Source of the DNA: Oscillospiraceae bacterium
Lineage (GTDB): Bacteria > Bacillota > Clostridia > Oscillospirales > Ruminococcaceae
Direction: 5' to 3'
Length of the DNA: 45,352 bases
Assembly: GCA_017460835.1 (NCBI GenBank)
Contig: JAFUAD010000006.1
Location: forward strand, 1 to 45,352
Of the stretch, positions 20,331-36,296 are shown piece by piece. The first letter of the stretch is position 1. Each line of letters starts with the position of its first letter. The notes beneath the pieces are model-generated. The model saw only the letters and a program-made list of their open reading frames with translations. It was not told the origin of the DNA and searched no databases. The translations under genes were made by a program, and so were the position numbers.

Positions 20331-21413
20331 TCAGAAAACATGCGGGAAATCGGCGGGATGGATGATCTCCGAGAGCATGACATGCAGCAGGCCGAAGCTG
20401 CCCTCATCGTAGGGATTCTGAAGCGAGGAGAGCGGCAGGAAGCCGTAATCCGGCGCAGCCTCGGGCAGAATCAGCGTACACTCCGGCTTTTCAGGGTCGT
20501 CCCCGCGGATGATCTCTGCGCTGAAGATCCGGCAGAACCGCTCCAGCAGGGAGGCGCTGTTTGCGAGCGAGATATCGCGCGAAAGCGGCAGATGAAACAG
20601 GGATTTCCGCTTTCTTCCTTTGGAAAACGCCATGCGGATGCGGACGCGGCCGTCCCGCTCCTCCGCCTGAAGCGTCATTTCATTGCGCTCCGGCACACCG
20701 CCGTGTGTCGAGAGAAACATCAGAATGAGAACATATGCAAACCGCTCCGGGTCAATTTTCACATAAAGGCCGCGCTCGATCCTGCAATCCGTCAGCTTCA
20801 GGCTGCTGCCGGTCAACCTCGTGAGCTTCTCGGCAAACTGCCGCAGCGTGATCGTGAGGTCCTGAATCTCCTGCACCTCATCCTGCGAATGGTAGGTATA
20901 CCAGAGCAGCTCCTCGCAGTGCTGGCAGGAATCCATGATCGTATAGCAGGGCTCCTCCGCATCGTAAATGACCTCCCGCAGATCGGGCGCGCGGCCGTTT
21001 CGCAAATCGTTTTCGGCAAAATACAGGGTCTGCATCACAGAGGCGACGGCGCTCCGGCAGATGTCGGTATGCGAACGCAGCATCGCGCGCGACTCCTGCG
21101 GCGTGAGCTCCCGGCGCTCGGAATGCTCCGGAAACCGCAGCAGAAAGAGCTCCTCTCCCGAAACCGTAAGGCGCTGAATCTGACAGGCCGCCGGCTGATC
21201 CTCACGGATATCGAACAGCACGGTGCCGTCCGGCGGAAGGATCACGCCGGGGGAGGAGACAGAGGCGGGAAGCTCCTTGCGAAGCCAGCTCAGCAGCGTG
21301 CGGCAGCGGCTGTCCGATGCCCAGATAAGGTCCAGTCTGCGGTCCACCGCGCATACCGGCACCTCTGAGCTGCCGTAGAGGAGCTGAAGCGCCTGCTGAA
21401 CTGATAAATCCAT
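20331..21413 (-). CDS. Cytosolic PAS-like plus degenerate histidine-kinase-like protein
   Basis: A 360-residue protein that I recognise only in outline. Residues about 15-105 resemble a PAS domain (VPVCAVDRRLDLIWASDSRC). A helical stretch about 110-190 stands where a kinase dimerisation domain would be, and residues about 215-330 resemble a HATPase_c fold, with DPERFAYVLILMFLS in the place of the N box. The N-box asparagines and the glycine-rich G boxes are missing, so ATP binding is doubtful. No membrane segment and no response regulator gene is adjacent. The start at 21413 follows AAGGAGA; the longer frame from 21650 crosses the gap promoter and is rejected. A TATAAT lies on the minus strand at 21477-21472, and the leader has a GC hairpin. 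Confidence 0.55.
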   Translation of the reverse strand: MDLSVQQALQLLYGSSEVPVCAVDRRLDLIWASDSRCRTLLSWLRKELPASVSSPGVILPPDGTVLFDIREDQPAACQIQRLTVSGEELFLLRFPEHSERRELTPQESRAMLRSHTDICRSAVASVMQTLYFAENDLRNGRAPDLREVIYDAEEPCYTIMDSCQHCEELLWYTYHSQDEVQEIQDLTITLRQFAEKLTRLTGSSLKLTDCRIERGLYVKIDPERFAYVLILMFLSTHGGVPERNEMTLQAEERDGRVRIRMAFSKGRKRKSLFHLPLSRDISLANSASLLERFCRIFSAEIIRGDDPEKPECTLILPEAAPDYGFLPLSSLQNPYDEGSFGLLHVMLSEIIHPADFPHVF

Positions 21414-21610
21414 CCGTAATCTCTCCTTTTTTAGGGGGATTGCCCCGTGCGGGGGGCGACAGTATAGATACATTATACACGAAAGCAGCGATGAATTCGA
21501 GCTTTTTTCAAGAATTCGGAAAGATACACAATTTTCCGGATATTCCCTTGTGCAAACCGAACAAAAAGCATATCTTTGATTCCGGGAACGTGATTTTTTT
21601 GTCAAAGTGC

Positions 21611-21639
21611 TTGCAATTTCGCTCAAAATGGTGTAAAAT
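21611..21639 (+). promoter_or_regulatory. Sigma-A promoter of gap
   Basis: TTGCAA at 21611-21616 and TAAAAT at 21634-21639, spacer 17 bases. The start codon of gap is 31 bases downstream, with AGGAGGTAA as ribosome site. Confidence 0.8.
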
Positions 21640-21669
21640 AGAAGTATCAAATTTTAGGAGGTAATTCCA

Positions 21670-22707
21670 ATGTCTGTTAAAGTTGCTATCAATGGTTTCG
21701 GCCGCATCGGTCGTCTGGCATTCCGCCAGATGTTCGGCGCTGAGGGCTATGAGGTCGTCGCGATCAACGATCTGACCAAGCCTTCGATGCTTGCACATCT
21801 TCTGAAGTATGATACTGCACAGAAGGGCTACTGCGGCGTGATCGGCGAGAACAAGCACACTGTCTCTGCTGACGACGAGGCCGGCACGATCACCGTGGAC
21901 GGCAAGACCCTCAAGATCTATGCAGAAAAGGATGCAAAGGATCTGCCGTGGGGCGAGCTCGGCATTGATGTTGTGCTCGAGTGCACCGGCTTCTACTGCT
22001 CCAAGGAAAAGTCTCAGGCTCACATTGACGCAGGCGCGAAGAAGGTCGTCATCTCTGCTCCGGCAGGCAACGATCTCCCGACCATCGTGTTCTCCGTCAA
22101 CGAGAACACCCTGACCAAGGATGACACCATCATCTCCGCAGCTTCCTGCACCACCAACTGCCTCGCTCCGATGGCAAAGACGCTGAATGACTATGCTCCG
22201 ATCCAGTCCGGTATCATGAGCACCATTCACGCTTACACCGGCGACCAGATGATCCTCGACGGCCCGCACCGCAAGGGTGACCTCCGCCGCGCACGCGCAG
22301 GCGCTGCCAACATCGTTCCGAACTCCACCGGCGCTGCAAAGGCAATCGGTCTGGTTATTCCGGAGCTGAACGGCAAGCTGATCGGCTCTGCACAGCGCGT
22401 TCCGGTTCCGACCGGCTCCACCACCATCCTGACCGCTGTTGTCAAGGGTGCTGATGTGACGAAGGAAGGCATCAATGCTGCAATGAAGGCTGCTGCTTCT
22501 GCATCCTTCGGCTACAACGAGGATCCGATCGTTTCCTCTGATGTCATCGGCATGACCTACGGTTCTCTGTTCGATGCAACCCAGACGATGGTCGCAAAGA
22601 TCGCTGACGATCTGTATGAGGTTCAGGTTGTTTCGTGGTATGACAACGAGAACTCCTACACCAGCCAGATGGTTCGCACGATCAAGTATTTTGCAGAGCT
22701 CGGCTGA
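21670..22707 (+). CDS. gap: Glyceraldehyde-3-phosphate dehydrogenase
   Basis: A 345-residue GAPDH, of usual length. It oxidises glyceraldehyde 3-phosphate with NAD and phosphate in glycolysis. NAD-binding [14 protein letters not shown] is at residue 8; the catalytic cysteine is in [44 protein letters not shown] and SWYDNENSY are further family blocks. It stands alone, with its own promoter and terminator. Codon bias is strong, as in tuf, in line with high expression. Confidence 0.98.
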
Positions 22708-22727
22708 TTCCCTTACACGGAATACAC

Positions 22728-22767
22728 GGAAGCCCCGGGGCATAACCGCTCCGGGGCTTCCTTTTCA
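22728..22767 (+). terminator. Terminator of gap
   Basis: GGAAGCCCCGG (22728-22738) with CCGGGGCTTCC (22751-22761), then TTTTC. On the minus strand no T run follows, so it is mainly a plus-strand terminator. The converging eight-gene operon ends at 22792. Confidence 0.88.
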
Positions 22768-22791
22768 TTTTGTAATAAAAGCATTTTCCTT

Positions 22792-24051
22792 TCAGGACTG
22801 CGACGCGGGAATCCGCTCGGGAGCTTCCGCTTCCGGCTCATTCTCCTCCTCATCAATCGGCGGTGCCTCCGGGTCAGCATTATTCTCCGAGGTAATCACC
22901 TGCAAAATAGCGATCGGCCGCATCGAATCCGCAAAATTGATCAGATCCGTATGCGTATTCAGCTTCTCGGCAATGCCCTTTCGCCCGTCTCCGTCTCCGC
23001 TGTCATTCTGCTGCGGGGCGGGCGGCGCGGCTGCCTGCTGCTGCACAGACACCTCCCCGGCCGCCGGAATCGCGGTCTGTACCGGCATCTGCACCGGCAT
23101 CGCCATCGCCGCCGGCGCGAACTGCCCCTTCTGCTTTCTTATCATCTGCTTGCTGCGGATATTCTCCAGAATCATCTCACAGACCTGCTCCGGAATCACA
23201 AAAACATCCTGCGCGAGCCCGCTGATGTAATCGCCGGGCTGGAGCTGTGCCTCCTGCAAACCGGTCATGATCCACGCATAGAACATCTCGCTCGCTTCGT
23301 TCAGCATCCGGAAGGTGAAGCCCTCAGTCTTTTCCGCAAGATCATCCGGCTGCATCTCAAACGCCAGCTTCGGATACGGCTTCATCATCAGCGTGAAAAA
23401 GCTGCTGCGGTCCTCCTTTGTCGGGAGCGACAAATACAGCACATGAAAGCCGCGCTGGATGCACTCGGGCAGGGCGGCGGGCTCACGGTGACACCAGCCC
23501 GTCGTGACCGACATATGCGTTTCATCGGAGGGCAGGCGGCGGATCCAGTATGCAAAGCGCTCGGCGAGCTGCCTCTTTTTCAGGATGGGTCTGAGATCGC
23601 CGAAGGACAGGTACAGGCAGATTTCCTCATACTCCGGCTTCAGGCACATGGTTTGGATCGCAGACATGACCGCATCGAGCCGCTGAAGCGACTCCGATTT
23701 CGTTGTGCCCTTGATGATATGCAGCGGAAATTCATAATACCGCAGCTCGGCCTCCTGCTTCTGATAATCCTCATAGAGCCGGTCGAGAAAGGCGAGATTC
23801 AGGGCGCGCTTGCCGCAGCCCTCTGGGCCGGTGAACAGGAAGGCGCGGCTCGGCCGGACGCCGGGGGGATACATGCCCGCCAGCATAAACTGCCACGAGA
23901 TGCCCTCATCATCGAAAAACGGCAGCGCACCCATCAGGATGCGGGCGTGCTCCGATCTGCCGATCAGCCTGTCCAGTGCCCAGTCCGGCAGGGGCAGAGC
24001 GGAGGGCTTGACATAGCAGCCCTCCGGATCAAATGTGAATTTTTCTGCCAT
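22792..24051 (-). CDS. Degenerate AAA-type ATPase with long proline/acidic tail (cluster gene 8)
   Basis: A 419-residue protein. A P-loop GPEGCGKRA is at 75-83, where Arg replaces the usual Ser/Thr after Gly-Lys. The Walker B position (about 144-152, ICLYLSFGD) lacks the Asp-Glu pair, so hydrolysis is unlikely. A helical C-terminal lid-like region follows to about 320 (LSLPTKEDRSSFF, EKTEGFTFRMLNEASEMFYAW). The last hundred residues are low complexity, with Ala/Pro/Gln/Met stretches and an acidic end. It starts seven bases after the stop of the active AAA gene, with no strong ribosome site, so it is probably translated by coupling. The likely role is partner or adaptor of that ATPase; this is inference. 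Confidence 0.75.
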   Translation of the reverse strand: MAEKFTFDPEGCYVKPSALPLPDWALDRLIGRSEHARILMGALPFFDDEGISWQFMLAGMYPPGVRPSRAFLFTGPEGCGKRALNLAFLDRLYEDYQKQEAELRYYEFPLHIIKGTTKSESLQRLDAVMSAIQTMCLKPEYEEICLYLSFGDLRPILKKRQLAERFAYWIRRLPSDETHMSVTTGWCHREPAALPECIQRGFHVLYLSLPTKEDRSSFFTLMMKPYPKLAFEMQPDDLAEKTEGFTFRMLNEASEMFYAWIMTGLQEAQLQPGDYISGLAQDVFVIPEQVCEMILENIRSKQMIRKQKGQFAPAAMAMPVQMPVQTAIPAAGEVSVQQQAAAPPAPQQNDSGDGDGRKGIAEKLNTHTDLINFADSMRPIAILQVITSENNADPEAPPIDEEENEPEAEAPERIPASQS

Positions 24052-24057
24052 AGCGGG

Positions 24058-25353
24058 TTAATCCTGAATCTGGCGCGGCTCGGTGTCCTCGTCATCATCT
24101 GCATAGAACAGATCGTCGTCCTCATCCAGATTCCGGCGCTTCCAGTCTGCGATTGCATCCAGAATATCCTTCTTCGGCGAGGGCTTGAATTTCGAGACCG
24201 CATCCTCCCACTTCTTCCGGGTCAGCATGTAGCTGCCGTTGCGGAGCGCGCCGATCGCGGCAAACTGGTTATCGTACTGCTCCAGCACATCCTTGAACGC
24301 ATCGCGCTTGATGCGCGTGGTCAGGCGCTCGAAGTCACGGTAATTGTAGCCCTCGGTGACCGATGCCATCTCAGCAAAGCTCAGTCCCCTTTCGACGGTC
24401 AGGATATCCTCGAAGCGCTTGCGGAGCGCTGCCTCTCTTGCGCCGGTATCCGGCAGCGGAACCTCGATGACCTCGACACGGTCGAGCATAGCGGAATCCA
24501 CGCGCTGCGGATAGTTGGTCGCGCCGATGAAGATGACCTTGGAATCGGAGCTGTGAATCCGGTTGAAGCCGGTCAGGAACGAGGTTGTGATATTGGCCGC
24601 ATATTCCGGCAGATTCGGCAGAGAACGGTTCTTGCACACGCTGTCGATCTCGTCGATGAACACGATGCAGGGCGCGTTCTTCTCCGCCTCCTCAAACAGG
24701 CGGGTGACGATCTTTTCCGCGTCGCCGACATAGCGGCTGATGATATCGGAGCCCTGCAGGGACAGATACTTGTAATCCTGCTCCATCAGCTCATGCGCGA
24801 ACGCCTCGATGATATAGGTCTTGCCGCAGCCGGGAGGGCCGACGAAGAAATAGGAATTGAGGTGCGGAATCTGGAGATAATCCATCAGCTCCTCGGATTT
24901 CGCATCGGTGATGCAGCCCTGGAGCTTCTTTTTCAGCTCGACCATACCGGAAACATCCTCAAAGGAATGCCGCGGCGCTTCCTTGAACCATGTCCGGACG
25001 GTGCGGTCGAGGGCTTCCTCATCCTTCGTCTTTTCGCCGTCGGCGCCCGGAGCCGGCGCCTTGCCGCCCTCCTTATCGCCGGCGGTCTTCTTGACAGAGC
25101 CGGGGTTCAGCTCCTGCCGGATCTTCATGATCTCGTAATCCAGACGGTTCTTCTCTCTGGTATGGCGCGCCTGCTCGGCACCGATCGAGATCTGTGCCAT
25201 TTCAAATTCCAGATCTGCTGCCATTTGCAGGAAGCGGCATTCCTGCTCGCTCGCGGCATTGTTGTTCTGCTGCCGGCAGGCTCTTGCCTGTGCCTGATAA
25301 TTCGCGCTCATCGTTTCCTTTTTCAGGAAATTCGTTGTGAATTTGCTTTCCAT
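24058..25353 (-). CDS. VPS4/katanin/spastin-like AAA ATPase (cluster gene 7)
   Basis: A 431-residue classical AAA ATPase. Residues 1-85 are helical, Gln/Asn/Ala rich and charged, a likely substrate or partner domain. A flexible Gly/Pro/Lys linker (about 86-112) leads to the AAA module (about 125-375): Walker A GPPGCGKT 172-179, pore loop GSDIISRYVGDAEK 201-214, Walker B CIVFIDEIDSV 229-239, sensor 1 GATN 277-280, and Arg292 as probable arginine finger. The pore loop has the aromatic residue expected of substrate-threading meiotic-clade ATPases. The tail is very acidic. The GGAGG site lies 11 bases before the ATG. No protease domain is fused, so remodelling rather than degradation is likely. 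The target is unknown; the neighbouring helical proteins are candidates. Confidence 0.88.
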   Translation of the reverse strand: MESKFTTNFLKKETMSANYQAQARACRQQNNNAASEQECRFLQMAADLEFEMAQISIGAEQARHTREKNRLDYEIMKIRQELNPGSVKKTAGDKEGGKAPAPGADGEKTKDEEALDRTVRTWFKEAPRHSFEDVSGMVELKKKLQGCITDAKSEELMDYLQIPHLNSYFFVGPPGCGKTYIIEAFAHELMEQDYKYLSLQGSDIISRYVGDAEKIVTRLFEEAEKNAPCIVFIDEIDSVCKNRSLPNLPEYAANITTSFLTGFNRIHSSDSKVIFIGATNYPQRVDSAMLDRVEVIEVPLPDTGAREAALRKRFEDILTVERGLSFAEMASVTEGYNYRDFERLTTRIKRDAFKDVLEQYDNQFAAIGALRNGSYMLTRKKWEDAVSKFKPSPKKDILDAIADWKRRNLDEDDDLFYADDDEDTEPRQIQD

Positions 25354-25376
25354 GCGACTCTGTGCCTCCGTTTCAT

Positions 25377-26261
25377 TCAGTGATTCTTGATGTATTCCAG
25401 GCAGGCTTCCGCATCTGCGTTATCCAGAACGGTTCCGCCCATGCCGACATTGCTGATCGAGACAGGGGCGGTCTGGCCCTGCTCTGCCATCATTTTCTCG
25501 GCGTTTTCGGTTGCGGCGATGACCTCCTCGGGCTGCATGGCAAGGAACGCGCCGTTCTTTGCCGCATCCCGGATCTGCTCCTTCGTCAGCCCCTTCATAT
25601 CGCTGCTGCTCGCGGTAATGAGCATATCCGCGGGGGTTTTCGGGAGATTCTCCTCCTCGATCAGCTTGTCGATCGGGGTCAGGAAGTACCGCTCATTGTT
25701 GATCGCGGAGACATCGCTCTTGATGCCGAACTTGGTCTTCTGATACCAGAGGGAGATGCGCGTCATCCAGTCCGAGCCCGTCGAGATCGCGTTGACGGTC
25801 TTGTAGCCCTTTGTCAGGTTCCGGATGATCTGCTGCCACTCATGCTCCTCCGGAATCTCCGAGAGGCGCTCCAGCGTCTGCTCGACCAGAGCCAGCGCAT
25901 AATACGCATTTTTCCACTTCGTTTCGAGCTTTCTCAGCTTGGCATCTCTGCCCGGGGTTGCCGGCTCGGTCTGCCGGTAAGCGATTTCCTTCTGGGCGGT
26001 ATAGATGATATCCGTGAGCTGGTCGCGGATGACCCACATTTCGCCCTTTGCCTTGTCGATCTGCTCAAGGAGCTGATTCCGCCGGAGCTGCTGATCGACC
26101 CATTCCACATTGGAGGCGCGCTCCTTCTGGGCGCGGGTTCTGGTTGCGTTCTCCATGCGGGCATTGTTGAGATCCTCCAGGGAATCGAGCCGCCTGTCCT
26201 CTTTGTCGGCATTTTTCTGCATTTTTTTGGTTTCCCGCTTCATGCGCCATTCATCAAACAT
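25377..26261 (-). CDS. Unknown helical charged protein (cluster gene 6)
   Basis: A 294-residue protein of no family I know. Residues 1-60 are extremely charged (MKRETKKMQKNADKEDRR), predicted helix and probably coiled coil. Helices continue to about 145 (LLEQIDKAKGEMWVIRDQL), then a mixed region with SLWYQKTKFGIKSDVSAI, and a C-terminal part with alternating short helices (LTKEQIRDAAKNGAFLAM). No signal peptide, membrane helix or catalytic motif. It has AAAGGAG before the ATG. It lies between the AAA gene and the MGIFGSKKK protein gene, with short gaps on both sides (23 and 24 bases), so it is part of the same operon. Confidence 0.7.
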   Translation of the reverse strand: MFDEWRMKRETKKMQKNADKEDRRLDSLEDLNNARMENATRTRAQKERASNVEWVDQQLRRNQLLEQIDKAKGEMWVIRDQLTDIIYTAQKEIAYRQTEPATPGRDAKLRKLETKWKNAYYALALVEQTLERLSEIPEEHEWQQIIRNLTKGYKTVNAISTGSDWMTRISLWYQKTKFGIKSDVSAINNERYFLTPIDKLIEEENLPKTPADMLITASSSDMKGLTKEQIRDAAKNGAFLAMQPEEVIAATENAEKMMAEQGQTAPVSISNVGMGGTVLDNADAEACLEYIKNH

Positions 26262-26285
26262 AATTCAAGTTCTCCTTTCAGTGGG

Positions 26286-27602
26286 TCAGCCCATATCAGC
26301 CAGAATGTGATTTTCTTCTTCCGGCTGCTCATTGATCTGCGGCTCGTTTTCCTGCTTCGGCGGCTTGTTTCTCTGCTCGGTATACATCTTGTTGAAATCT
26401 GCAAACGCCTTGTCCGCTTCCTCAAACAGCTTTCTTCTTTCGCGGGCATTCTCCGCATTATCCAGCCATTCCTGATTAGCTGCCGCCGCATGCACAAGGC
26501 TGTCGAGCCGCTGCGTCATCTTGTAGGATTCATTCTCTGCGCGGAACATCGCGTTGATCTCATTAACCGCACGCTCGGTAATGCGGCGGAGTGCCTGCTG
26601 GTTTTCCTCCTCGCTGTAATCCATGCCCTGCTCGGTCGCATAGCGCATCTCTGCATCCTGACGGAAGGTTTCCAGCTCGCTGCGCAGACGGGTGATCATT
26701 TCGGTCAGGCGCTCGATATAGAGCTGCTGGAGCTCGACCTTTGCGATCGCCCGGCGTGCATCTATCTCAATGCCGATGAACTTTCTCAGCGGGTGATTAG
26801 ACGGAAGCTTTTCTGCGCCGGCAAAGCCGATCACATCAAACTGCTGCTGATATTTCTCCGGGATTGCATTCAGTCTGTCCCGGTGTTCTTCAAATTCATG
26901 GCGGCGCTTTTCATAGGCCTTTTCGGCAACGCTCAGTGAGGAAACGCCGGCATAGATCTGGTCAGCGGCACGGATTGCAGGCCAGAATACATTTTCGACC
27001 GTATCCTTTCTCAGCTCAATGATCTTTCTTGCGGTATCCTCGCTCTTGCCCTCGATCGGGCGCTTATGAACAACCAGAACGGCATATTTCAGAACCTCAT
27101 AGCAGACATCCGCCTTGAGCTTCTGGCCGTCATTCAGCGCCTCCTTCAGCTTGCGCACAAAGGGCAGAATCAGCGGGTCGATCTCATCCGCGCCGACGGC
27201 ACACGCCTCTGCCGCGGACATATTGACCGTATAAGCGCCGGTGACCGCTCTGATCATCGTGCGGTATCCCTGAAGCTCCGGCGGAAGGATATAGAGCCCG
27301 TCCTCAAGCGCGAGGCGGTTCTCGGTGACATATGCCTCCGAGGGAGTCGTTTCCCGCACGCGGTCCAGAATCTGCATATTGAAGTCGAAGGTTTCCTCAT
27401 TCTGCTGCGCGGCCTTCATCATCTGCGCCTCGAATGCCGGCTGCTGCAATGCGCCCAGCTCCTCGACGAGCTGATCCAGTGCGGTGCGGGCACCTGCCAT
27501 TTTCACCTGCTCGGCCGCGATCATCTGCTTCGGCGTGAGCTCCTGCGGCGCGACCGCCTCCTGCTCAACCTTTGCCTTTTTCTTGCTGCCAAAAATTCCC
27601 AT
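26286..27602 (-). CDS. Unknown helical protein starting MGIFGSKKK (cluster gene 5)
   Basis: A 438-residue, almost wholly helical protein. The N-terminus MGIFGSKKKAKVEQEA is short, hydrophobic then basic, a pattern seen in peripheral membrane-binding proteins such as Snf7/CHMP4 and PspA, though that is a weak resemblance. Residues about 25-75 and 230-420 are heptad-rich (LQQLYIERLTEMITRLRSEL, RRKLFEEADKAFADFNKMY), with a compact middle (GLYILPPELQGYRTMIRAVT). No catalytic motif. GGAGGAA precedes the ATG by eight bases. In the neighbourhood of a VPS4-like ATPase it is a candidate filament- or scaffold-forming substrate; this is inference and needs structure prediction. Confidence 0.72.
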   Translation of the reverse strand: MGIFGSKKKAKVEQEAVAPQELTPKQMIAAEQVKMAGARTALDQLVEELGALQQPAFEAQMMKAAQQNEETFDFNMQILDRVRETTPSEAYVTENRLALEDGLYILPPELQGYRTMIRAVTGAYTVNMSAAEACAVGADEIDPLILPFVRKLKEALNDGQKLKADVCYEVLKYAVLVVHKRPIEGKSEDTARKIIELRKDTVENVFWPAIRAADQIYAGVSSLSVAEKAYEKRRHEFEEHRDRLNAIPEKYQQQFDVIGFAGAEKLPSNHPLRKFIGIEIDARRAIAKVELQQLYIERLTEMITRLRSELETFRQDAEMRYATEQGMDYSEEENQQALRRITERAVNEINAMFRAENESYKMTQRLDSLVHAAAANQEWLDNAENARERRKLFEEADKAFADFNKMYTEQRNKPPKQENEPQINEQPEEENHILADMG

Positions 27603-27625
27603 AGAAAGTTCCTCCGTTTCCTCTA

Positions 27626-28111
27626 TTACAACATCCCGATCGGTTCAGACAGGATGTATGCGTCCCTGTTTCCGACTGCGAGCCGGAATTTGAAATCCTC
27701 TGCGGCGATCACGCCGACGCGCTCGCGGCTGACGGGCTTATCCGGCTTCAGCGTGACAAGCTGCTCCCGGCTGCCGCTGCCCATCCGCATCCGCACGCGC
27801 ATCGTGAATGCACGGTCGGAGGTCATCTGCTGGCAGACCAGATCGGACCAGAACACGGCATCGCTCCGGAGCTGGGAGGCGCCGGCGAGCGGACGCCATG
27901 CGCTGCCGGTATCCGAGACACCGTCTGCGCGCACCTCATAGCTGAATACCTGAAGATCAATCGTGATCTGCTTGAGCTTCGAGGCGCGGTATTCCTCGAT
28001 CATCCTGCGGTTTTCCTCGGTCGTGTCCCCGACGGTCAGCACCGGGAATCCGCAGACGGGACAGGTCGCCAGTCCCTCTGCGACGTCATGATAACAGCAA
28101 CTACACTGCAT
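27626..28111 (-). CDS. Zinc-ribbon protein (cluster gene 4)
   Basis: A 161-residue protein. A zinc ribbon at the N-terminus has ligands in CSCC (residues 3-6) and CPVC (17-20). A helix (ENRRMIEEYRASKL) connects it to a beta-rich domain of about 115 residues (ITIDLQVFSYEV, FTMRVRMRMG, REQLVTLKP) that I do not recognise. It overlaps the end of the coiled-coil gene by 11 bases and has an AAAGGTG site, so the two are translationally coupled and may form a complex. Cytosolic, with no catalytic motif. Confidence 0.75.
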   Translation of the reverse strand: MQCSCCYHDVAEGLATCPVCGFPVLTVGDTTEENRRMIEEYRASKLKQITIDLQVFSYEVRADGVSDTGSAWRPLAGASQLRSDAVFWSDLVCQQMTSDRAFTMRVRMRMGSGSREQLVTLKPDKPVSRERVGVIAAEDFKFRLAVGNRDAYILSEPIGML

Positions 28112-30311
28112 ATTGGTTCACCTTTCTTTCCGTATCTTCGATTACCAGAATATAGTCCTTATGCAGCCCCGCCATCAGGGCACGGACTGTTTCAAGCTCA
28201 GCGGCAAGCGCCTGCTGCTTTTTCTCCAGCAGCGGCATGCCGTTCTGCGCAAAGAATTCTGCGGGGATATTCGTGCCGAAAAGCGCCTGAACGCCCTCCT
28301 CATAGAAGCGGATCATCTCCTGACAACTCTGAATCTCCCGCTTCTGCGCCTCATACTGCTCCGGGCTGAATGCGCGGCGGTATTCCTCGATATCGTTGCG
28401 GCAGGTGCTGAGCTGCTGCTCGAGCTCCCGGCGGTTCGCTGCCATTTCATTGCGCTTTGTCTGAATCTCCGCGACCTGCTTTTCGAGCCCCTCCAGCTCC
28501 AGCGCCGCTGTCCGGGCGGCGATCTGTTCATCCTGGAGTGCAGCGGTGAGGGTATCGTGCTCCTGCTGCATGTCCGCGCGCTGCTGCTGCGCCGATGCGA
28601 GATCGGTTTTCAGCGTTTCCAGCTTCTCCTGAAGCCCGACGATATCGCTGTGGCTGAGCATCTCCTGCTTTTCGTTGATCTCGCGGATGAGACTCTGCTG
28701 GCGCGCGCCGAGCTGCCGGATGCGCTCCTCGACCTGTTCGAGGGTCTGCTCCTTTTCGGCGATTGCGCTCTCGAGCGCCGCGATCTGTTCATCGGTCTCG
28801 CGGCTGCTCTCAGCGATCTGATCGAACTCGCCCTGCTTCTGCGCAAGGATCTCCTCCTGCTCCGTTTTGCGGTCGAGCGCGGACTGCTTCTGCTCATCCA
28901 GCAGCTTGATCTTCAGGCGCAAAGCGGAGGTCTCCTTGTTGAATGTCTCCTCGGAGGACGACAGCTCTGCCGCCATTTCGGCGAGCAGCTTCTTCTGCGC
29001 TTCATGATCCTCCATTTTGCTGCGCTTTTCGTCGGTTTCCGCCTGCATTGCCGCGAGCTCGTCCGTCAGGGCCTGACAGGCGGCTATCGCCTCGTCGTAT
29101 GCGGCCTTTGCGGCATCGCGGGCTGCCTGCGCATCATCGCGCTGCTGCTGTGCCTGCTCCAGTGCCGCGGTACACTCCGCATTCTGAGCGGTCATCTCCG
29201 AGAGCTCCGCCCCGGCAGTCTCCAGCGCCTCCCGGACGGCATCGAGCGCATCCTTTGCGCTCCGGCGCTTCTGCTCTGCCTGCTCCTGCTCCTGCGTCAG
29301 CCGGGCAGTTTCCGTCTCCGCGGATTCCAGCTCGGCGGCTGTCTCCGCAAGATACTGCTTCAGCGATTCCTGCTTTGATTTTGCATCATCAATGAGCTGA
29401 TGCTTCTGCGCGAGCGCCGCCTCAATGCCGCCGTTTTCGCCGGTCAGCATGTCATATTCCGATTGCAGTGCTTCGAGCTGCTCCTGCCGTGCATGGGCGG
29501 CGCCGGAGACCTCGGAGAGCTTCTGCTTCAATGCGGCACAGGCCTCCTGCTGCTCCTGCACGCTCTGCTCGGCGGCGGCGACCGCATCCTGCAATGCATC
29601 GGATTCCGCCTTTACGGCCGAGAGCGCGGACTCCCGCTCTGCCTGTACCTGCTTCTGTTCTGCGATCTGCTCCAGCACGGCCTGCTTCTGTGTCAGCAGC
29701 CGCTCTGCGGCCTCCTGCTGATCGGCGGCCTCGTCCTGGAGGGCGTGCAGCTCCTGTTCAATGGCCTCGGCGCGCTGGATCGCGGCCTCCCGCGTCTGCT
29801 TCTCCTGTTCGAGCGCCTCGATCTGTGCGGCGAGCTGATCCGGATCGACGACGGAGAGATCGTCGAGGGCGCGGTGCAGCGCCTCCTCCTTCTTCCGCAG
29901 TGCGGTCAGGCCGGCGGTCTGCTCCTCCTTTTTCCGCACCAGATTCTCCAGCGAATCGAGCTCGCGGTTCAGTGCGGTGATTTCCTGCTCGCCCTCTGCA
30001 AGCTCTGCCTCGGCATCCGCCGTCTCCGCATGGCGTGCCTCCAGCTCATCGCGCAGCGCCTGCATCCGCGCCTGCTGCCGCTCGGTCATCTGCGATGCCG
30101 CATCCGGGGAAGCGCTCCGCAGCAGCACATGCGCCACGGTCCGCCACTTTTGCAGCGCGGTGTCATCCGCCTCAAGCTCGGCGGGGTTTGTGCCGGTTTC
30201 ATCCTGTATATCCTGCATCATATCCTGCATGACCGCGTACATCTCGCCGAGGGTCAGGGTACGCTCACGCTGTAAATTTTGCAGGCTTTGTTTTGTTCTG
30301 GCAAATAACAC
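28101..30311 (-). CDS. Long coiled-coil protein (cluster gene 3)
   Basis: A 736-residue protein. Residues about 1-75 are a helical globular head (LTLGEMYAVMQDMMQDIQDE). From about 78 to 660 it is nearly unbroken coiled coil, very rich in Glu, Gln, Ala and Leu, with many heptad repeats and a few short breaks. The last 70 residues (FYEEGVQALFGTNIPAEFF) form a second small head and end NQYAV. There is no Walker A or SMC signature, so it is not an SMC ATPase. The start is GTG at 30311 with GGGAGGG eight bases upstream; that site overlaps the stop of the Hsp70 gene. It could be a spacer or scaffold of 80 nm or so if fully extended, an estimate from length only. Confidence 0.82.
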   Translation of the reverse strand: MLFARTKQSLQNLQRERTLTLGEMYAVMQDMMQDIQDETGTNPAELEADDTALQKWRTVAHVLLRSASPDAASQMTERQQARMQALRDELEARHAETADAEAELAEGEQEITALNRELDSLENLVRKKEEQTAGLTALRKKEEALHRALDDLSVVDPDQLAAQIEALEQEKQTREAAIQRAEAIEQELHALQDEAADQQEAAERLLTQKQAVLEQIAEQKQVQAERESALSAVKAESDALQDAVAAAEQSVQEQQEACAALKQKLSEVSGAAHARQEQLEALQSEYDMLTGENGGIEAALAQKHQLIDDAKSKQESLKQYLAETAAELESAETETARLTQEQEQAEQKRRSAKDALDAVREALETAGAELSEMTAQNAECTAALEQAQQQRDDAQAARDAAKAAYDEAIAACQALTDELAAMQAETDEKRSKMEDHEAQKKLLAEMAAELSSSEETFNKETSALRLKIKLLDEQKQSALDRKTEQEEILAQKQGEFDQIAESSRETDEQIAALESAIAEKEQTLEQVEERIRQLGARQQSLIREINEKQEMLSHSDIVGLQEKLETLKTDLASAQQQRADMQQEHDTLTAALQDEQIAARTAALELEGLEKQVAEIQTKRNEMAANRRELEQQLSTCRNDIEEYRRAFSPEQYEAQKREIQSCQEMIRFYEEGVQALFGTNIPAEFFAQNGMPLLEKKQQALAAELETVRALMAGLHKDYILVIEDTERKVNQYAV

Positions 30312-30313
30312 GG

Positions 30314-31951
30314 TTACGGCCCTCCCAATCCGGTCAGTACGATGCTTTCAAACATATCCTTCAGCGTGGAAAGCCGGAGCGATGCTGTCGGCTTCGGGTC
30401 GCGCTGCGCCCTTTCGATGTCATAATTGTAGACATGCACCGTGATCCGGTCGCAGTTGTCCATCGAAAAGCCGATCACGACGACATTCCCGCAGGGGAGC
30501 GATTGCAGCCGCGCGGCAAACTCCGGCTTCGGGCGGACGTCGATCGCGGTGGACTCCCGCTTGCCGAAATTCAGCAGGAACTTGTCAATGCTGCCCGAGG
30601 TCATCGGCCACGGGTTGCCGCGGTCATCGAGGGCGAAATACACGCTGTCGGGCTCGATCTCCTGCCCGTAATTGATCGCGAAGCGGTTGAAGCGGCTGCC
30701 GTCGGAGTAGGTCGCGTAGGTGCCGATCGAGAACTGCGCAATGTTGCAGACGCTCAGCACATTGTCTGCAAAGAGCGCCGCACCGTGTGCGATCGCGGTC
30801 TCGCGCTGTGCCTCCTCGCGGATCATGCCCTTTGTCCGCTCGTCGATCTGTGCGATTTTGAAATAGTCATAGATCTGCTTCCGGACGAGATAGAAATTGC
30901 AGAAGCCGCCGACCAGCGCAATGCGCAGATTTTTCGTATCGTCCATATCGGCGGTGGTCTCATCGAGAACGCGCTGCAAAACCGGCGAAATGATCTGCTG
31001 ATAGCAGGTGTAGAGCTGGTGGTAGTCGATCTCGACCGGCTCGCCCTTGTATTCGAGATCGCAGAACAGCACCTCGCGCATTTCCTCCGGCGTGAAGATG
31101 AATTCATCCATCGTGTCCGCGATTTCCTCGGACTGTGACAGAAGCTGCTCCTCAAAGAGCTTCAGGAACTGGTTGAAATGGGCGTCGTAGGGAATCTTCC
31201 GCTGCGGGGTGCCGGTCGCCTCGCTGATCGCCAGCCGCGCGACTGCCTCCTGAAATGCGATGCCCGCCTCGCCGATTTCGTTGTCGCGGTTTTCGCCCGC
31301 GCCGCTGCGCATCTCCGGCTTGATCTGCATCTGCCCGTTCTGCCGGCGCACATTCACCAGCGCGGTATCGAGCGTGCCGCCGCCGTAATCGACGACGAGG
31401 ATTCTGCCGTCGAGCGGCTCATGATACTCCTGCTCGTAATTCCAGACGCAGAAGGCCGCCGCATTCGTCGGCTCGCTGACGATCTTCACATTCTCGACCA
31501 GATCGGTCATGCCCGAGCAGATATCCCGCAGCGTCCCGCGCGCATCGACGGTCTGGATGCTCTGGAACCAGCACTCCGGCGCGCCGATGACCAGCGTCCC
31601 GACCTTGTCCTCGCCCTTAGTATTCAGTGTATTGCTGATGACAAACCGCAGAAATTCCGCGGTGATCCGCTCCGGGGTGTTGACGTCATCATAGCCGCGC
31701 AGTGCCAAGTTTTCTGCGCTCATCTGCTGATTCAGCAGCATTTTGAAGCCGCGGAAGGTGATGGTATCCCGGCTTCCGACCCGGCTGCGCGCCGCATTGC
31801 CGCACAGATAGCGCGAGCGGCGCTTGTCATATACGACAATGGACGGGTAGCTGTATGAAAGAGCATCCGGCTTGACGGTTGCCGGCTTTTCCCCGTCATA
31901 AACCGACACCATCGTATAGGTACTGCCGAAGTCAATTCCGATATTGATCAT
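30314..31951 (-). CDS. Divergent Hsp70/DnaK-like protein (cluster gene 2)
   Basis: A 545-residue actin-fold ATPase of the Hsp70 family. Phosphate 1 is IGIDFGSTYTMVSVY (4-18), connect region VSEPTNAAAF (158-167), phosphate 2 LVVDYGGGTLDTALV (185-199), adenosine motif IALVGGFCNFYLV (344-356). The usual K71-type residue cannot be placed with confidence. After about residue 420 only 125 residues remain, which may be a reduced beta substrate domain (DSVYFALDDRGNPWPMTSG); there is no helical lid. It is far from housekeeping DnaK, and no DnaJ or GrpE is near. GGGAGTA lies before the ATG. It probably works as a regulated switch within the cluster rather than as a general chaperone. Confidence 0.85.
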   Translation of the reverse strand: MINIGIDFGSTYTMVSVYDGEKPATVKPDALSYSYPSIVVYDKRRSRYLCGNAARSRVGSRDTITFRGFKMLLNQQMSAENLALRGYDDVNTPERITAEFLRFVISNTLNTKGEDKVGTLVIGAPECWFQSIQTVDARGTLRDICSGMTDLVENVKIVSEPTNAAAFCVWNYEQEYHEPLDGRILVVDYGGGTLDTALVNVRRQNGQMQIKPEMRSGAGENRDNEIGEAGIAFQEAVARLAISEATGTPQRKIPYDAHFNQFLKLFEEQLLSQSEEIADTMDEFIFTPEEMREVLFCDLEYKGEPVEIDYHQLYTCYQQIISPVLQRVLDETTADMDDTKNLRIALVGGFCNFYLVRKQIYDYFKIAQIDERTKGMIREEAQRETAIAHGAALFADNVLSVCNIAQFSIGTYATYSDGSRFNRFAINYGQEIEPDSVYFALDDRGNPWPMTSGSIDKFLLNFGKRESTAIDVRPKPEFAARLQSLPCGNVVVIGFSMDNCDRITVHVYNYDIERAQRDPKPTASLRLSTLKDMFESIVLTGLGGP

Positions 31952-31965
31952 TTCTCTCTACTCCC

Positions 31966-33588
31966 TTATTTCATAAGCAGGTCTCGCCCGAATTTCTTGA
32001 CCGCCTCATAAAAATCCTTACTTGTTCTGTAATTCTGCGGCCCCAGCACATGCACGGTTCTTCTGGTCAGCTTCGAGGCTTCCGCATCCTCATAGGGCGC
32101 ATTCTCCGATTTGCGCAGACAATAGCGGATCAGCGTCGCTTCCTTATCCTGTGCGGCGGCCCCGGTCTTCCCCGTAATGATGATCTGGATCGCCTTTTTG
32201 CATGCAAGGTGCTGGTCGTCCGTGCCGATGCGGCTCTCTGCGTCATCGCGGCACAGGAGGAACAGATGATACAGGGCATACATAATGCCCTTGTCCCAGT
32301 TATTCCACTGCGGCTGCTTTTTCAGGTAATCGAACAGAATCCGCAGTGCCTTCTGGCAGTCCGGATTCCGGAACTCGCAGTATGCGGGCTCTGTCCAGTT
32401 TTCCGGGTGGAGATAATCCGGAGCCGCAAACGCCTCGGTCATCTCCAGCAGCGCGGTCAGCTCCTCCTCGGAGAGCAGCTTCTCATGGCCGCGCAGCACA
32501 GAGCGGTACTGCGTCAGCGTACTGACGAAATCCTGCCCGGACTCCGCACGCTGCATCAGAATCGGCTGCATGCCGGGCTGCATGGTATCCGAAAGCTGCG
32601 ACAAAAGCTGCCCCGGGTCGGTCAGGAGCTCCTCCTGCGCCAGCTCGGTGATGCGCAGCCGGAACGCGGGGTCCTCCAGATTCTGCACCAGAACATCCAG
32701 CATCCGGCGGGGATTGTCGCGGCAGCCGAGCGCCGCACAGCGGTCGCGGAACAGAATCGTGCTGTGCCAGCCCCACAGAATCGCGGCGAAAAGATCGGAT
32801 TTTCCGCAGTTTTCCCATTCCGGATGACGGAAATATGCATATCGCACCGCCGCACGGACATCCTCATAGGCCAGGGCATTCCAGCAGTGCAGGCGGTTTC
32901 CGAGCGCGCTGCGCAGCATTTCATAGCGCATCACGCGGTAGGTATCGGCGCCCTTGATCTGCCGGATCAGCTCCGGGAACAGATAGGGCTGAAGCAGCAA
33001 GCCGGGGGGAAGCCCGGTTCCCTTGCCGTCCTTTTCCTGCTCCGGCCAGCGAAACAGCGGATCGGCCTCTGCTGCCCGCGGCGACACCGTCAGAATCAGG
33101 ACATTGCTGCGGTTATGTGCGATCAGATCGGCAAGCTGGCGCTGGATATCGGGATTCTGCTCGGCAACGCGCCCCAGCAGCTCGCCCGGCATAGCCAGCG
33201 CAGTCGCATTCTTCTGCTTCATCACATTCAGCAGGGCGCGCACGCGGTCGGCGAGGCCGTCCTCATCCAGAAATTCCTCTCCGGCAGCGGCATCCCGCTT
33301 GGTATTGGTATCCTCGCGCTTTGAGAATAAGCCGCCGAACAGCTTTTTCTTCTGCTCGGGCTCCATTGCGGCGATGCTCTGGCCGCCGACCCACTGCATG
33401 CGGTAATCGTGGTCGCTGCCCTTCGGGGTATCGTACAGCAGGAAGATGTTGCGGAACTCCGGCTCAGCGCAGTAGATCCGGTAGCGGAGACAGGGCAGAA
33501 ACTGCATGCGGATCAGGTTCGGGGTATAGTAGCTGTCATCCGGGTTTGCAATCAGCAGGTGTACGAAGCCGTCTGCGGCAAGGAACAT
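31966..33588 (-). CDS. Unknown 540-residue protein, first gene of the cluster
   Basis: I do not recognise a family. The N-terminal 70 residues are beta-rich (FVHLLIANPDDSYYTPNLIRMQFLPCLRYRIY). A charged linker (KKKLFGGLFSKREDTNTKRD) follows. Residues about 130-200 (NVMKQKNATALAMPGELLGRV..., NRSNVLILTVSPRAAEADPLF) recall the second half of a P-loop domain, but no Walker A is present. The remaining 340 residues are helical and rich in Trp, Leu and Glu (LFAAILWGWHSTILFRDRC). Cytosolic. It follows the operon promoter directly, with GAGAGGTG ahead of the ATG. As first gene it may be the sensor or regulator of the set; that is a guess from position. Confidence 0.7.
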   Translation of the reverse strand: MFLAADGFVHLLIANPDDSYYTPNLIRMQFLPCLRYRIYCAEPEFRNIFLLYDTPKGSDHDYRMQWVGGQSIAAMEPEQKKKLFGGLFSKREDTNTKRDAAAGEEFLDEDGLADRVRALLNVMKQKNATALAMPGELLGRVAEQNPDIQRQLADLIAHNRSNVLILTVSPRAAEADPLFRWPEQEKDGKGTGLPPGLLLQPYLFPELIRQIKGADTYRVMRYEMLRSALGNRLHCWNALAYEDVRAAVRYAYFRHPEWENCGKSDLFAAILWGWHSTILFRDRCAALGCRDNPRRMLDVLVQNLEDPAFRLRITELAQEELLTDPGQLLSQLSDTMQPGMQPILMQRAESGQDFVSTLTQYRSVLRGHEKLLSEEELTALLEMTEAFAAPDYLHPENWTEPAYCEFRNPDCQKALRILFDYLKKQPQWNNWDKGIMYALYHLFLLCRDDAESRIGTDDQHLACKKAIQIIITGKTGAAAQDKEATLIRYCLRKSENAPYEDAEASKLTRRTVHVLGPQNYRTSKDFYEAVKKFGRDLLMK

Positions 33589-33655
33589 CTCTCTGCACCT
33601 CTCTTCTCATTTTTCGGCGGATTCCGGCTCCGCCGGACACAAACATTCAATTGTA

Positions 33656-33684
33656 ATTATACCATATTTTACCTACAAAGTCAA
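33656..33684 (-). promoter_or_regulatory. Sigma-A promoter of the eight-gene cluster
   Basis: On the minus strand TTGACT (33684-33679) and TATAAT (33661-33656) with a 17-base spacer and TGG before the -10. A short hairpin GGCGGA/TCCGCC lies in the leader (about 33616-33635). No other promoter was seen inside the cluster, whose gaps are all 24 bases or less. Confidence 0.88.
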
Positions 33685-33720
33685 TCCTTATTTTATATAT
33701 TTTGATGTTAGGCCATGATA

Positions 33721-33880
33721 ATCGGCAGGCATGACAAAATAATTCTCGCCTGCCGGAACAGGGGAGATGCCCCCATCCAACAGGCGAGAAAAATATCAAT
33801 TCAGAACAATCCGCTCGGCTGAGATAAAATACCCGGCTCCGCTCATTATGGTGCGAAGCGAATCGCCAGCGGGGGCTCCG
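33721..33880. repeat. Dispersed repeat locus R3
   Basis: A diverged reverse module A (33777-33815, CAACAGGCGAGA...CAGAACAATCCGCTC) is joined directly to the inner part of a forward module B (33815-33866, CGGCTGAGATAAAA...CATTATGGTGCGAAGCGAA). A hairpin TTCTCGCCTG (33743-33752) with CAGGCGAGAA (33781-33790) encloses GGGG/CCCC. The module B end lies inside scpA and supplies its last codons. Confidence 0.8.
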
Positions 33881-34637
33881 CGCCTCCGCGCCCGCGTTTT
33901 TGGCGGGAGCCGGTAAGGAGTGCATTGCGGTCCTTCATCACGATCTCCGTCCCGTCCTCGCTGATGCAGATGCGCCCGTGCCGCGTCAGCTCCAGAATCG
34001 CAAGAAACAGCGCGACCCGATCCGTCCGCTTCGTCAGGCCGTCAAACAGCTCGTTCATGTTCACGGAATCCACCCTGAAAAACTGCCGCAGCAAAAATAC
34101 CACCTTCGAGGCGACGCTCGTCACCTGATGATGCATCTGCACGACCGCGTGAATCTTCTCGCCGAGCCTGCCCTCTGCCTCGCCCTTCGGCATCCGCCGG
34201 AGCCCCATACTCTGATAGGTCTCCGAGAGCACACCGGGCTCGTGCGTGCGGCGATAGGTCAGATCGACCGGGAGGGCAATGCCCCGCCGGACAAAGAGCA
34301 GGTCACCGCAGAACTGCTGACGCAGCAGCTCCGCCGTGCGCTTGCAGAGCGAATACTCGATCAGCGCACCCTCCAGCTCCTTCTTGACCGCCTCTGCCTC
34401 CTCGCGCTGCGGGAGCAGTGCCGCCGTTTTCATCCAGATCAGCTTCGCCGCCATTGTCAGAAACTCGCCGGCGAGCTCGTAATCCTGCTCGGCACACTGC
34501 TGCATATACAGCAGATACTGCTCCAGCAGAACCGAAATCTCAATATCGTGAATATTGAGCTGATGCTTCGCAATCAGATGCAGAAGCAAATCCATCGGCC
34601 CCTCAAAGACCGGCAATCGAAATGACAGCTCCGGCAT
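33846..34637 (-). CDS. scpA: Segregation and condensation protein A
   Basis: A 263-residue ScpA, the kleisin subunit of the bacterial SMC-ScpAB condensin. N-terminal FEGPMDLLLHLIAKHQLNIHDI binds the SMC neck; YLLYMQQCAEQDYELAGEFLTMAAKLIWMKTAALLP is the following conserved helix; the winged helix near the C-terminus has FLAILELTRHGRI. The last 20 or so residues (GRGGAEPPLAIRFAP) are encoded by repeat R3, and the stop TAA is part of the module B text CATTATGGTGC read in reverse. The start is four bases after the stop of the metalloprotease gene. scpB, the usual partner, is not in the window. Confidence 0.94.
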   Translation of the reverse strand: MPELSFRLPVFEGPMDLLLHLIAKHQLNIHDIEISVLLEQYLLYMQQCAEQDYELAGEFLTMAAKLIWMKTAALLPQREEAEAVKKELEGALIEYSLCKRTAELLRQQFCGDLLFVRRGIALPVDLTYRRTHEPGVLSETYQSMGLRRMPKGEAEGRLGEKIHAVVQMHHQVTSVASKVVFLLRQFFRVDSVNMNELFDGLTKRTDRVALFLAILELTRHGRICISEDGTEIVMKDRNALLTGSRQKRGRGGAEPPLAIRFAP

Positions 34638-34641
34638 ACCG

Positions 34642-35379
34642 TCACCCGAATACCTTTGGAATCCAGTCGGTGATCGCCAGGAACATATCCCGAATCTGAT
34701 CGCTCAGCCATCCCATCGGTTCGCTCAGAAGGCCGGAAAACAGCACGATCAGGAAAACGATCCGGACAATCTGGTTGTTCTGGTAGATCCAGCGGTCGAA
34801 TTTTTCCGGCGTGAAATATCCGATGACCTTTGAGCCGTCGAGCGGCGGAATCGGAATCAGATTGAACACGGCAAGGCCGATATTCACGGAAATAAAGAAC
34901 TCAAGGAACATCTTGATCAGCATTTGCGTATCATTTGCATGGCCGGAAAGCACATAGCCCCAGCGGATATAGTAGCCGCCGGTCAGGCTCGTGTAAAAAT
35001 CCGAAATGAGGTAGAAGCGGTAGATCACCATACCGATCAGTGCGGCGATCAGGTTGCTGACCGGCCCTGCCAGCGCGGTGATCGCGATGCCGAAGCGCAT
35101 GCTGTGCTTGCGGTTAAAGCGGCGCGGGTTGATCGGAACCGGCTTCGCCCAGCCAAAACCCGTCGTCAGCATCAGCAGCGCGCCGATCGGGTCGAGATGC
35201 GCGATCGGGTTCAGCGTCATGCGCCCCTGAATGCTCGCGGTGTCGTCGCCGAGCTTATATGCGGTCCATGCGTGCGCCATTTCATGCAGCGGAAGAATCA
35301 GAAAAATGATGACAAGCTCAGCAAGAAGCTGGATGATCGTGGACTGATCCACATTTCCCGACAGCAGATCTCGCAGCAT
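34642..35379 (-). CDS. Site-2-type (M50) membrane metalloprotease
   Basis: A 245-residue multi-pass membrane protein of the rhomboid-sized M50 family (SpoIVFB/YwhC-like group). Zinc ligands are in LPLHEMAHAW (HExxH, His32, Glu33, His36) within the first membrane helix, and the third ligand in NLIPIPPLDGSK (about residue 177). About five hydrophobic segments. The group cleaves membrane-spanning substrates, but the target is unknown. The ATG at 35379 is preferred over a GTG at 35388 because AAAAGGAG lies eight bases before the ATG. It pairs with scpA, an arrangement common in clostridia, and has a duplicated promoter. Confidence 0.92.
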   Translation of the reverse strand: MLRDLLSGNVDQSTIIQLLAELVIIFLILPLHEMAHAWTAYKLGDDTASIQGRMTLNPIAHLDPIGALLMLTTGFGWAKPVPINPRRFNRKHSMRFGIAITALAGPVSNLIAALIGMVIYRFYLISDFYTSLTGGYYIRWGYVLSGHANDTQMLIKMFLEFFISVNIGLAVFNLIPIPPLDGSKVIGYFTPEKFDRWIYQNNQIVRIVFLIVLFSGLLSEPMGWLSDQIRDMFLAITDWIPKVFG

Positions 35380-35442
35380 ATTCGTCACTCCTTTTGATAA
35401 TCAGAACAAAGTTTCGGGGTCTTCCTTCGGGGGAATGCTATT

Positions 35443-35471
35443 ATTATACCATATATCGGGTAAAATTGCAA
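35443..35471 (-). promoter_or_regulatory. Proximal promoter P1 of the M50-scpA operon
   Basis: On the minus strand TTGCAA (35471-35466) and TATAAT (35448-35443), spacer 17 bases, with TGG before the -10. The -35 is inside the first copy of a 31-base direct repeat. Confidence 0.8.
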
Positions 35472-35589: not shown

Positions 35590-35691
35590 GGAGGAGGCTG
35601 CCGGGCATGCTATATTTTGTGGCTCTTTGCATATCCGGGCGGGTGATTTTCGGTGAAATCTGATAAATTTTGAAAATTCTGCAAAAAACAC

Positions 35692-35720: not shown

Positions 35721-35757
35721 AGGTATCGTAGACAAGTATGTAAAGGAGGTGCCAGCT

Positions 35758-36294: not shown

Positions 36295-36296
36295 CA

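Follow-up and report, generated by a model that had tools for sequence, protein, structure and literature searches.

An eight-gene operon of an Oscillospiraceae bacterium encoding an Hsp70-type ATPase, an AAA pair and subunits without known family: a candidate remodelling machine

The described systems closest to the operon reported here are conflict systems dependent on nucleoside triphosphates (NTP), AAA ATPases of the Vps4/CdvC and CDC48 types, and Hsp70/DnaK chaperones. One published account describes conflict systems in which HSP70 partners, inactive versions of enzymes and thresholding of the chaperone type occur (PMC7159879), and another reports that anti-invader systems repeatedly capture HerA/FtsK domains (PMC10853773). 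The operon lies in the window, that is, the whole stretch of 45,352 nucleotides analysed in this work (contig JAFUAD010000006.1 of the Oscillospiraceae assembly GCA_017460835.1). It consists of eight minus-strand open reading frames (ORFs) at 22792-33588, designated g1 (first) to g8 (last), which encode an Hsp70-type ATPase (g2), a classical AAA ATPase (g7), a degenerate AAA protein (g8), a coiled coil (g3), a zinc-ribbon-like protein (g4) and three products without known family (g1, g5 and g6). The set fits no named system tested, as had been supposed in the first-pass annotation of the window, made from the letters alone. No set of this kind is described in the titles and abstracts listed by searches aimed at it in open-access PubMed Central, outside of which lie most subscription papers and bioRxiv preprints.

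The comparison with individual systems can be summarized as follows. The AAA core of g7 is shared with Vps4/CdvC and CDC48, as reflected by NCBIfam scores of 118 bits (CDC48) and 109 bits (CdvC) and by the presence of Vps4B among the PDB matches. These scores are nevertheless far under the family cut-offs (802.65 bits for CDC48 and 650 bits for CdvC), the N-terminal region of g7 is not recognised as MIT, and the partners encoded here are a degenerate AAA protein and an Hsp70. The nucleotide-binding motifs and the beta-domain-like C-terminus of g2 align with the DnaK of the host, but g2 is devoid of helical lid and belongs to this operon. The models of IetA, from the IetAS system, match g7 with up to 93 bits in PADLOC; the NCBIfam model yields 74 of the 510 bits needed, as expected for AAA proteins generally. 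The IetS protease partner is absent, no protease domain being found in the eight proteins with Pfam, NCBIfam or PADLOC. Regarding CoCoNuT/McrBC, no McrB- or McrC-named match occurs among the Pfam and NCBIfam matches listed, and the AAA_5 match of g7 (32 bits) overlaps the much higher-scoring AAA match of this protein (113 bits). Chaperone-type ATPases, inactive enzyme versions and a patchy distribution are shared with the NTP-dependent HSP70 conflict systems as presented in the relevant parts of PMC7159879, but vWA, GTPase and tubulin domains are not matched in the eight proteins among the Pfam matches listed, which are the best 25 of 32 in the case of g7 here and below; bpMoxR is among those of g7 at a sub-threshold score (16.5 bits of 27 needed).

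The assignment of the eight genes to one operon is supported by their layout. The ORFs have the boundaries already proposed in the first-pass annotation, and the distances separating them from g1 to g8 are 14, 2, -11, 23, 24, 23 and 6 bases. The single strand, single promoter, gaps of at most 24 bases and unique overlap, here of 11 bases between g3 and g4, that it had described are all borne out. A promoter-like site precedes g1 on the minus strand (TTGACT-17-TATAAT with an extended -10 TG, 33656..33684), displaying 11 of the 12 consensus bases and ranking best among 13 such sites in 20500-36000, a region where shuffles expect 6.0 sites. Its core, GGATTGACT...ATATGnTATAATTA, is found upstream of g1 in the window and in all three relatives of the genus, hence in 4/4 loci. 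Both operon and promoter go beyond chance because the promoter core and the gene order are kept in the relatives and because the ratio of nonsynonymous to synonymous substitution rates (dN/dS) is 0.05-0.58. The hairpin located 3' of g8 (22728-22761) fits gap rather than the operon, its T-run being on the plus strand, and no RNA family reaches the Rfam gathering score in 20000-36300.

All eight genes are present in identical order in the three genus relatives, with gaps of 16-18, 1, -11, 21-23, 24, 21-22 and 6 bases. The identity to the window ranges from 38 to 67% for g1, g3, g5 and g8; at locus L019, the g3 match covers the first 174 residues only and the remainder is seen as an ORF of 844 residues. 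A diverged version of the operon occurs at six loci of a second, distant family, five of which contain all eight genes in the order Hsp70, coiled coil, zinc ribbon, g1, g5, g6, AAA and pseudo-AAA. The sixth, L085, has seven genes, with g1 first, a multi-transmembrane protein in the zinc-ribbon slot and two copies of g6. At L097, the AAA frame (1550-2878) is interrupted by a stop, which reflects either a broken copy or an assembly error. The succession g5-g6-AAA-pseudo-AAA is uninterrupted by other genes in 10/10 loci, counting the two g6 copies of L085 and the split AAA of L097. Profiles built from the four genus sequences detect Hsp70, AAA, g1 (E 2e-13), g6 (8e-10) and, weakly, g5 (0.008) in L085, and Hsp70, AAA, g4 (5e-8) and g8 (7e-8) in L086. 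In profile-profile comparisons of the genus with the second family, every gene scores best on its own counterpart, the probabilities from g1 to g8 being 98.1, 100, 98.6, 97.9, 80.1, 67.8, 100 and 98.5%, and the off-diagonal values do not exceed 2.3% except for AAA against pseudo-AAA. Four to six second-family sequences per gene entered this test; L094, near-identical to L086, was omitted, as were the split L097 from g7 and L085 from g4. The pairings of g5 (80.1%) and g6 (67.8%) are modest and hold less firmly, although they are backed by position. The set is thus found together at 10 strongly matching loci (the window, three in the genus and six in the second family), and homologues are not scattered singly: of the 12 loci fetched on AAA evidence, only the weaker L101 and L102 carry the AAA gene alone. 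This count is that of the 12 loci, the neighbourhoods of further AAA matches of FtsH level lying outside it.

The first-pass annotation had named two nucleotide-driven ATPases, and both are firm. Among the eight window proteins, the Pfam matches above cut-off are Hsp70 in g2 (PF00012, E 3.4e-16, 59 bits) and AAA-type families in g7 (PF00004, E 1.8e-32, 113 bits) only. The g2 protein (30314..31951, minus strand, 545 residues) comprises a nucleotide-binding domain followed by a beta-domain-like region which aligns with the host DnaK, and the sequences stop before the helical lid. In the phosphate loops, two aspartates and one threonine do not vary across the 10 sequences aligned with the DnaK of the same genome; K70, E171 and the linker were judged by eye from the alignment to this DnaK. 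The g7 protein (24058..25353, minus strand, 431 residues) carries the motifs GPPGCGKT, FIDEID and GATN behind a conserved N-terminal region of about 85 residues. Its Walker A, Walker B and sensor 1 motifs are invariant in the four genus sequences and in six sequences from the two families, and columns 201-300 of the genus alignment are identical in all four. From their residues, g2 and g7 thus look like an intact Hsp70 and an intact AAA protein, respectively. The downstream g8 (22792..24051, minus strand, 419 residues) retains the signature GxxGxG[KR][RH], in the form GPEGCGKR in the window and GxxGxG[KR]H[TS] in five second-family sequences, whereas a standard Walker B is missing by eye. No significant Pfam match was obtained in the window for g8, the pseudo-AAA of the earlier annotation, but its profile matches the AAA profile with 97% probability and the L085 copy meets the Pfam AAA cut-off exactly (21.2 bits). 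For the zinc ribbon of g4 (27626..28111, minus strand, 161 residues, with N-terminal cysteine pairs and a small conserved domain), the Pfam match is weak (E 0.35), but all eight g4 sequences compared retain the cysteine pairs.

The remaining products are helped less by database searches. The GTG-initiated g3 (28101..30311, minus strand, 736 residues) shows coiled-coil similarity under the Pfam cut-offs, and its alignment displays conserved ends and a gapped middle of variable length. The g1 protein (31966..33588, minus strand, 540 residues), g5 (26286..27602, minus strand, 438 residues), which has a short C-terminal tail (ADMG) conserved within the genus, and g6 (25377..26261, minus strand, 294 residues), which is strongly conserved within the genus and net acidic in its C-terminal half, have no known family. 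Pfam gave nothing better than E 0.13 for g1, g5, g6 and g8. Nothing significant was found for g1, g4, g5, g6 and g8 in Pfam, NCBIfam, PADLOC or PHROGs, the latter returning 0 families at E 0.01 for the window sequences, and profiles of g5 and g1 obtained only weak matches to unrelated proteins among PDB sequences. What NCBIfam and PADLOC contribute beyond this is generic (AAA, DnaK and coiled coil), the matches listed from NCBIfam being under its cut-offs. In agreement with the first-pass annotation, no nuclease, toxin or transporter was matched among the eight proteins by Pfam, NCBIfam or PADLOC. No transmembrane-strength hydrophobic window exists in them either, and the membrane association that had been offered as one option receives no direct support, L085 alone having a multi-transmembrane protein.

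The system is patchily distributed. A full-length AAA orthologue occurs in 4/30 genomes of the genus, that of the window included, and g1 in the same 4/30; among the 13 genus genomes with at least 90% completeness and at most 5% contamination, g1 is present in one. Single-sequence queries matched nothing but the genome of origin, with g5 in 148 genomes of the family and with g1 in 197 of the order. A g6 search of genome contigs retrieved 3 loci. The AAA profile produced two more strong matches in 345 genomes of the order, in G873 (E 1e-135) and G863 (3e-105), the next other genome standing at 8e-30, and an extended AAA profile revealed 6 carriers at E 1e-35 in 300 genomes of the second family. 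Two further AAA matches came from 291 genomes of the class (G1284 and G1429, loci L101 and L102), where the six other core profiles used (all but g3) were unmatched at E 0.01, save for a weak match of the g8 profile to the L101 AAA itself. These two loci are not counted as this system because only the AAA protein was found there. At the strict threshold of E 1e-60, the close Hsp70 profile detected the genome of origin only in 398 genomes of the phylum. On viral contigs, queries with g5, the close Hsp70 and g6 gave no relative, and wider Hsp70 and AAA profiles reached 2 and 3 loci with Hsp70- or AAA-type matches only and no other core gene. Phages and plasmids yielded nothing, or partial matches of DnaK or FtsH level.

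Purifying selection acts on the eight genes, which form one old unit. Comparison of the window with its relatives gave dN/dS values of 0.05-0.11 for AAA, 0.08-0.20 for g6, 0.12-0.19 for Hsp70 and 0.18-0.58 for the others, which are rough figures as the simple Nei-Gojobori method was used with dS up to 1.6. With a dS of 0.51-0.77 in the pairs computed, the AAA genes are not DNA copies of recent origin. The GC content at third codon positions (GC3) is 0.69-0.80 in the eight genes and 0.70-0.79 in seven neighbours, confirming the earlier remark on base composition and codon use. In a tree of scpA and M50 covering 28/30 genus genomes (G340 and G362 were dropped as they have no scpA match), the four carriers form one clade (100/99) made of the pairs window+G347 and G364+G351, and identities of the operon genes give the same pairs.

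The first-pass annotation had considered the operon as resident, in view of its position between gap and scpA. Age within the clade upholds residency, but the position is the wrong reason for it because that neighbourhood is not conserved. In the three relatives, operon and scpA are on different contigs and the operon lies between other genes; gap does not occur in the stretch around scpA in 27 other scpA loci (up to 1.5 kb on each side, several being shortened by contig ends), and the genes flanking the operon differ between loci by eye. A recent mobile insertion within the genus was first read from these differing sites and was then dropped, given the single clade (100/99) and the pairing common to carriers and operon genes. 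For the same reason, vertical inheritance with relocation is the simpler account within the genus: most simply, the ancestor of the four-carrier clade already possessed the operon, whose location then changed. Two observations on the surroundings may be added. The stretch after scpA (33846) varies across the genus, with an scpB-like ORF following in seven genomes (by eye) and the operon here. At locus L018, genes for FHA-domain, FtsW/RodA-like and PBP-like proteins (112-5781, by eye) are divergent from the operon.

In the second family, accessory genes adjoin the core. A SWIM-HerA protein is found next to it in 4/6 loci by ORF assignment (L086, L094, L095 and L096, the last with two), and was not seen in the stretches examined of L085 and L097, that of L085 ending 480 bases past g8. 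PADLOC, run on the L095 copy, scored it at 588 bits against the C-terminal ATPase of DndH and at 68 bits against mad8; Pfam, run on the L086 copy, gave the HerA central domain at E 8.5e-12 and SWIM under cut-off. The protein accordingly shares its ATPase domain type with DndH-type HerA/FtsK translocases, but the N-terminal domains of DndH are unmatched, the L095 copy covering at best 1287-1685 of the 1686 model positions. In PADLOC, none of the eight window proteins matches DndF or DndG, nor does any of nine proteins from L095 or one from L085. Membership of DndH was rejected as the C-terminal ATPase alone is matched, and the protein is regarded as related to HerA/FtsK. RCC1-repeat proteins, mostly with zinc-ribbon-like N-terminal cysteines, are encoded upstream of the core in L086 (17400-19470), L094 (17450-19435), L095 (171-2501) and L097 (10891-16150), and a kinase-like RCC1 protein in L085 (10795-14481), where the score against the MADS6 kinase is 34 bits for a cut-off of 460. 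At L096 (G1132:C32, 109-2913 and 13483-15135), a second, N-terminally short AAA protein (1903-2913) was observed, along with a SWIM-HerA-type protein on each side of the core.

The explanation that we favour, while holding it tentatively, is that the eight genes, inherited together, specify one cytosolic remodelling machine that is driven by ATP and in which an Hsp70 gates an AAA ATPase, likely in a stress or anti-invader setting. Judging from their anatomy, g7 would drive an AAA ring as its motor, with g8 as a partner that does not hydrolyse ATP. The ring could act on the charged subunits g5 and g6, which are always encoded directly before the ring genes and whose C-terminal tails it would probably grip. 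The lidless g2 might serve as a nucleotide-gated clamp or switch for client loading or release, g3 as a spacer whose length varies between conserved ends, and g4 and g1 as adaptors or sensors. A stress or anti-invader response appears the most likely setting because of the patchy distribution and of the SWIM-HerA and RCC1-repeat accessories of the second family. Several points weigh against this explanation. Neither a nuclease nor a toxin nor any other effector was detected among the eight proteins. The genus profiles of g1, g5 and g6 are not significant in L086, the link being made there by the profile-profile test and by position. The SWIM-HerA partner was not found in the 30 genomes of the window's genus, the query giving weak matches in 10/30 that all fall within its residues 184-297, a segment made up of the linker and barely reaching into the ATPase. 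The flanks look by eye like ordinary chromosomal genes, and inheritance within the genus looks vertical, which is less typical of mobile defence.

A conflict system directed against phages or plasmids has a lower probability, in our estimate, and must be considered next. The Hsp70, g1 and the zinc ribbon would sense the invader, the AAA pair would trigger or execute a block, and HerA, where present, would provide a DNA-handling arm. Such a system would account for the patchiness (4/30 genus genomes with the window included, 6/300 in the second family and, for the single-sequence g5 query, 0/147 other genomes of the family) and for the faster divergence of g1, g3, g4, g5 and g8 compared to AAA. 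The HSP70 partners, inactive enzymes and thresholding of known conflict systems, in the parts of PMC7159879 devoted to them, point the same way, as does SWIM-HerA in 4/6 second-family loci, whose DndH-like translocase domain may hint at anti-invader work. On the other hand, homologues with the C-terminal ATPase alone are false positives for DndH according to the corresponding passage of PMC10853773, and PADLOC recognises in the core only generic AAA proteins (IetA and similar), the g3 coiled coil and very weak Hsp70 matches. The missing effector, the plasmid and phage searches that were empty or limited to partial DnaK- or FtsH-level matches, and the vertical inheritance within the clade also argue against it. 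We regard as unlikely a more elaborate proposal of a new machine, in which the Hsp70 switch would control an active/inactive AAA pair assembling and disassembling g5/g6 filaments on or near the DNA or membrane of an invader, as part of a defence or stress response. The logic would be ESCRT-like and the parts unrelated or very distant.

A bacterial ESCRT-like machine is yet harder to accept. It would require g6, possibly with g5, to form filaments of ESCRT-III type, g7/g8 to act as a Vps4-type disassembly ATPase, and the Hsp70 and g3 to control assembly at membranes. The placement of a small charged protein directly before an AAA gene is an ESCRT-like gene order and is observed here. Against PDB sequences, the AAA profile reaches 139.5 bits with Vps4B, which has one AAA domain, and 106.4 and 118.5 bits with the domains of CDC48 (one chain with its domains listed). 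All 11 g6 sequences have a C-terminal half that is net acidic, the g6 of L095 has a sub-threshold match to EAP30/Vps36, an ESCRT-II family (13.7 bits of 26.8 needed), and the multi-transmembrane protein of L085 would suit a membrane function. However, Snf7 and PspA are unmatched in Pfam by g6, its six second-family relatives included, and MIT is unmatched by six N-terminal pieces of AAA proteins and among the best 25 of the 32 matches of g7. The comparison of g6 with yeast Snf7 using hhalign gives a probability of at most 1.3%, unrelated profiles reaching up to 0.5%; in shuffle tests of two g6 profiles, 5/1000 and 76/1000 shuffles attain the score. The 5/1000 value is the best of 13 comparisons, and neither the other g6 profile nor the reverse test reproduces it. 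With a Snf7/Shrub model and eleven g6 sequences, 13 to 434 of 500 shuffles reach the score, and 218/1000 do so for the AAA N-terminus against yeast MIT. The negative concerning ESCRT-III has little power because the reference consists of two sequences, which makes the model a weak one. Homology to ESCRT-III or MIT is not demonstrated by Pfam, PDB sequences, hhalign or shuffles, and no transmembrane-strength window exists in the eight proteins. The earlier designation of VPS4-like is fair for the AAA module only.

Another operon of the same class resembles a Vps4-type system in bacteria. Locus L102 (G1429:C2:181000-197000, 4684-12415) encodes an SPFH-zinc ribbon protein, two small charged proteins, an AAA protein and a large protein that has cysteine pairs and matches TPR weakly. 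The AAA protein aligns with positions 6-366 of 370 in the CdvC model (212 bits of 650 needed) and with Vps4_C under cut-off (E 0.0021), and the small proteins are unmatched by the two-sequence Snf7/Shrub model. This locus was considered as a bridge to ESCRT-III and dropped: against the g6 profiles and the Snf7/Shrub model alike, the two small proteins match no better than shuffles do.

The operon might also serve to assemble a single large enzyme or structure in the cytosol of this clade, tied neither to invaders nor to membranes. Such an assembly factory would agree with the vertical inheritance, the strong promoter-like site, a GC3 like that of housekeeping neighbours and the combination of chaperone-type ATPases with scaffolds, but is improbable given that no enzyme or structural gene recurs beside the operon by eye and that the neighbours differ between loci.

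What is new in this work is the set and its family-less subunits, the folds of at least three subunits (the Hsp70 and the two AAA-type proteins) being already known. With eight genes, two ATPases and five products without significant family match, kept in two families, the finding amounts to a whole undescribed molecular machine and not to a single orphan gene. The machine is directly testable because its eight proteins, devoid of transmembrane-strength segments, are encoded together. If it proves to be a remodelling or a defence system, Hsp70 switching would be linked to AAA remodelling within one operon.

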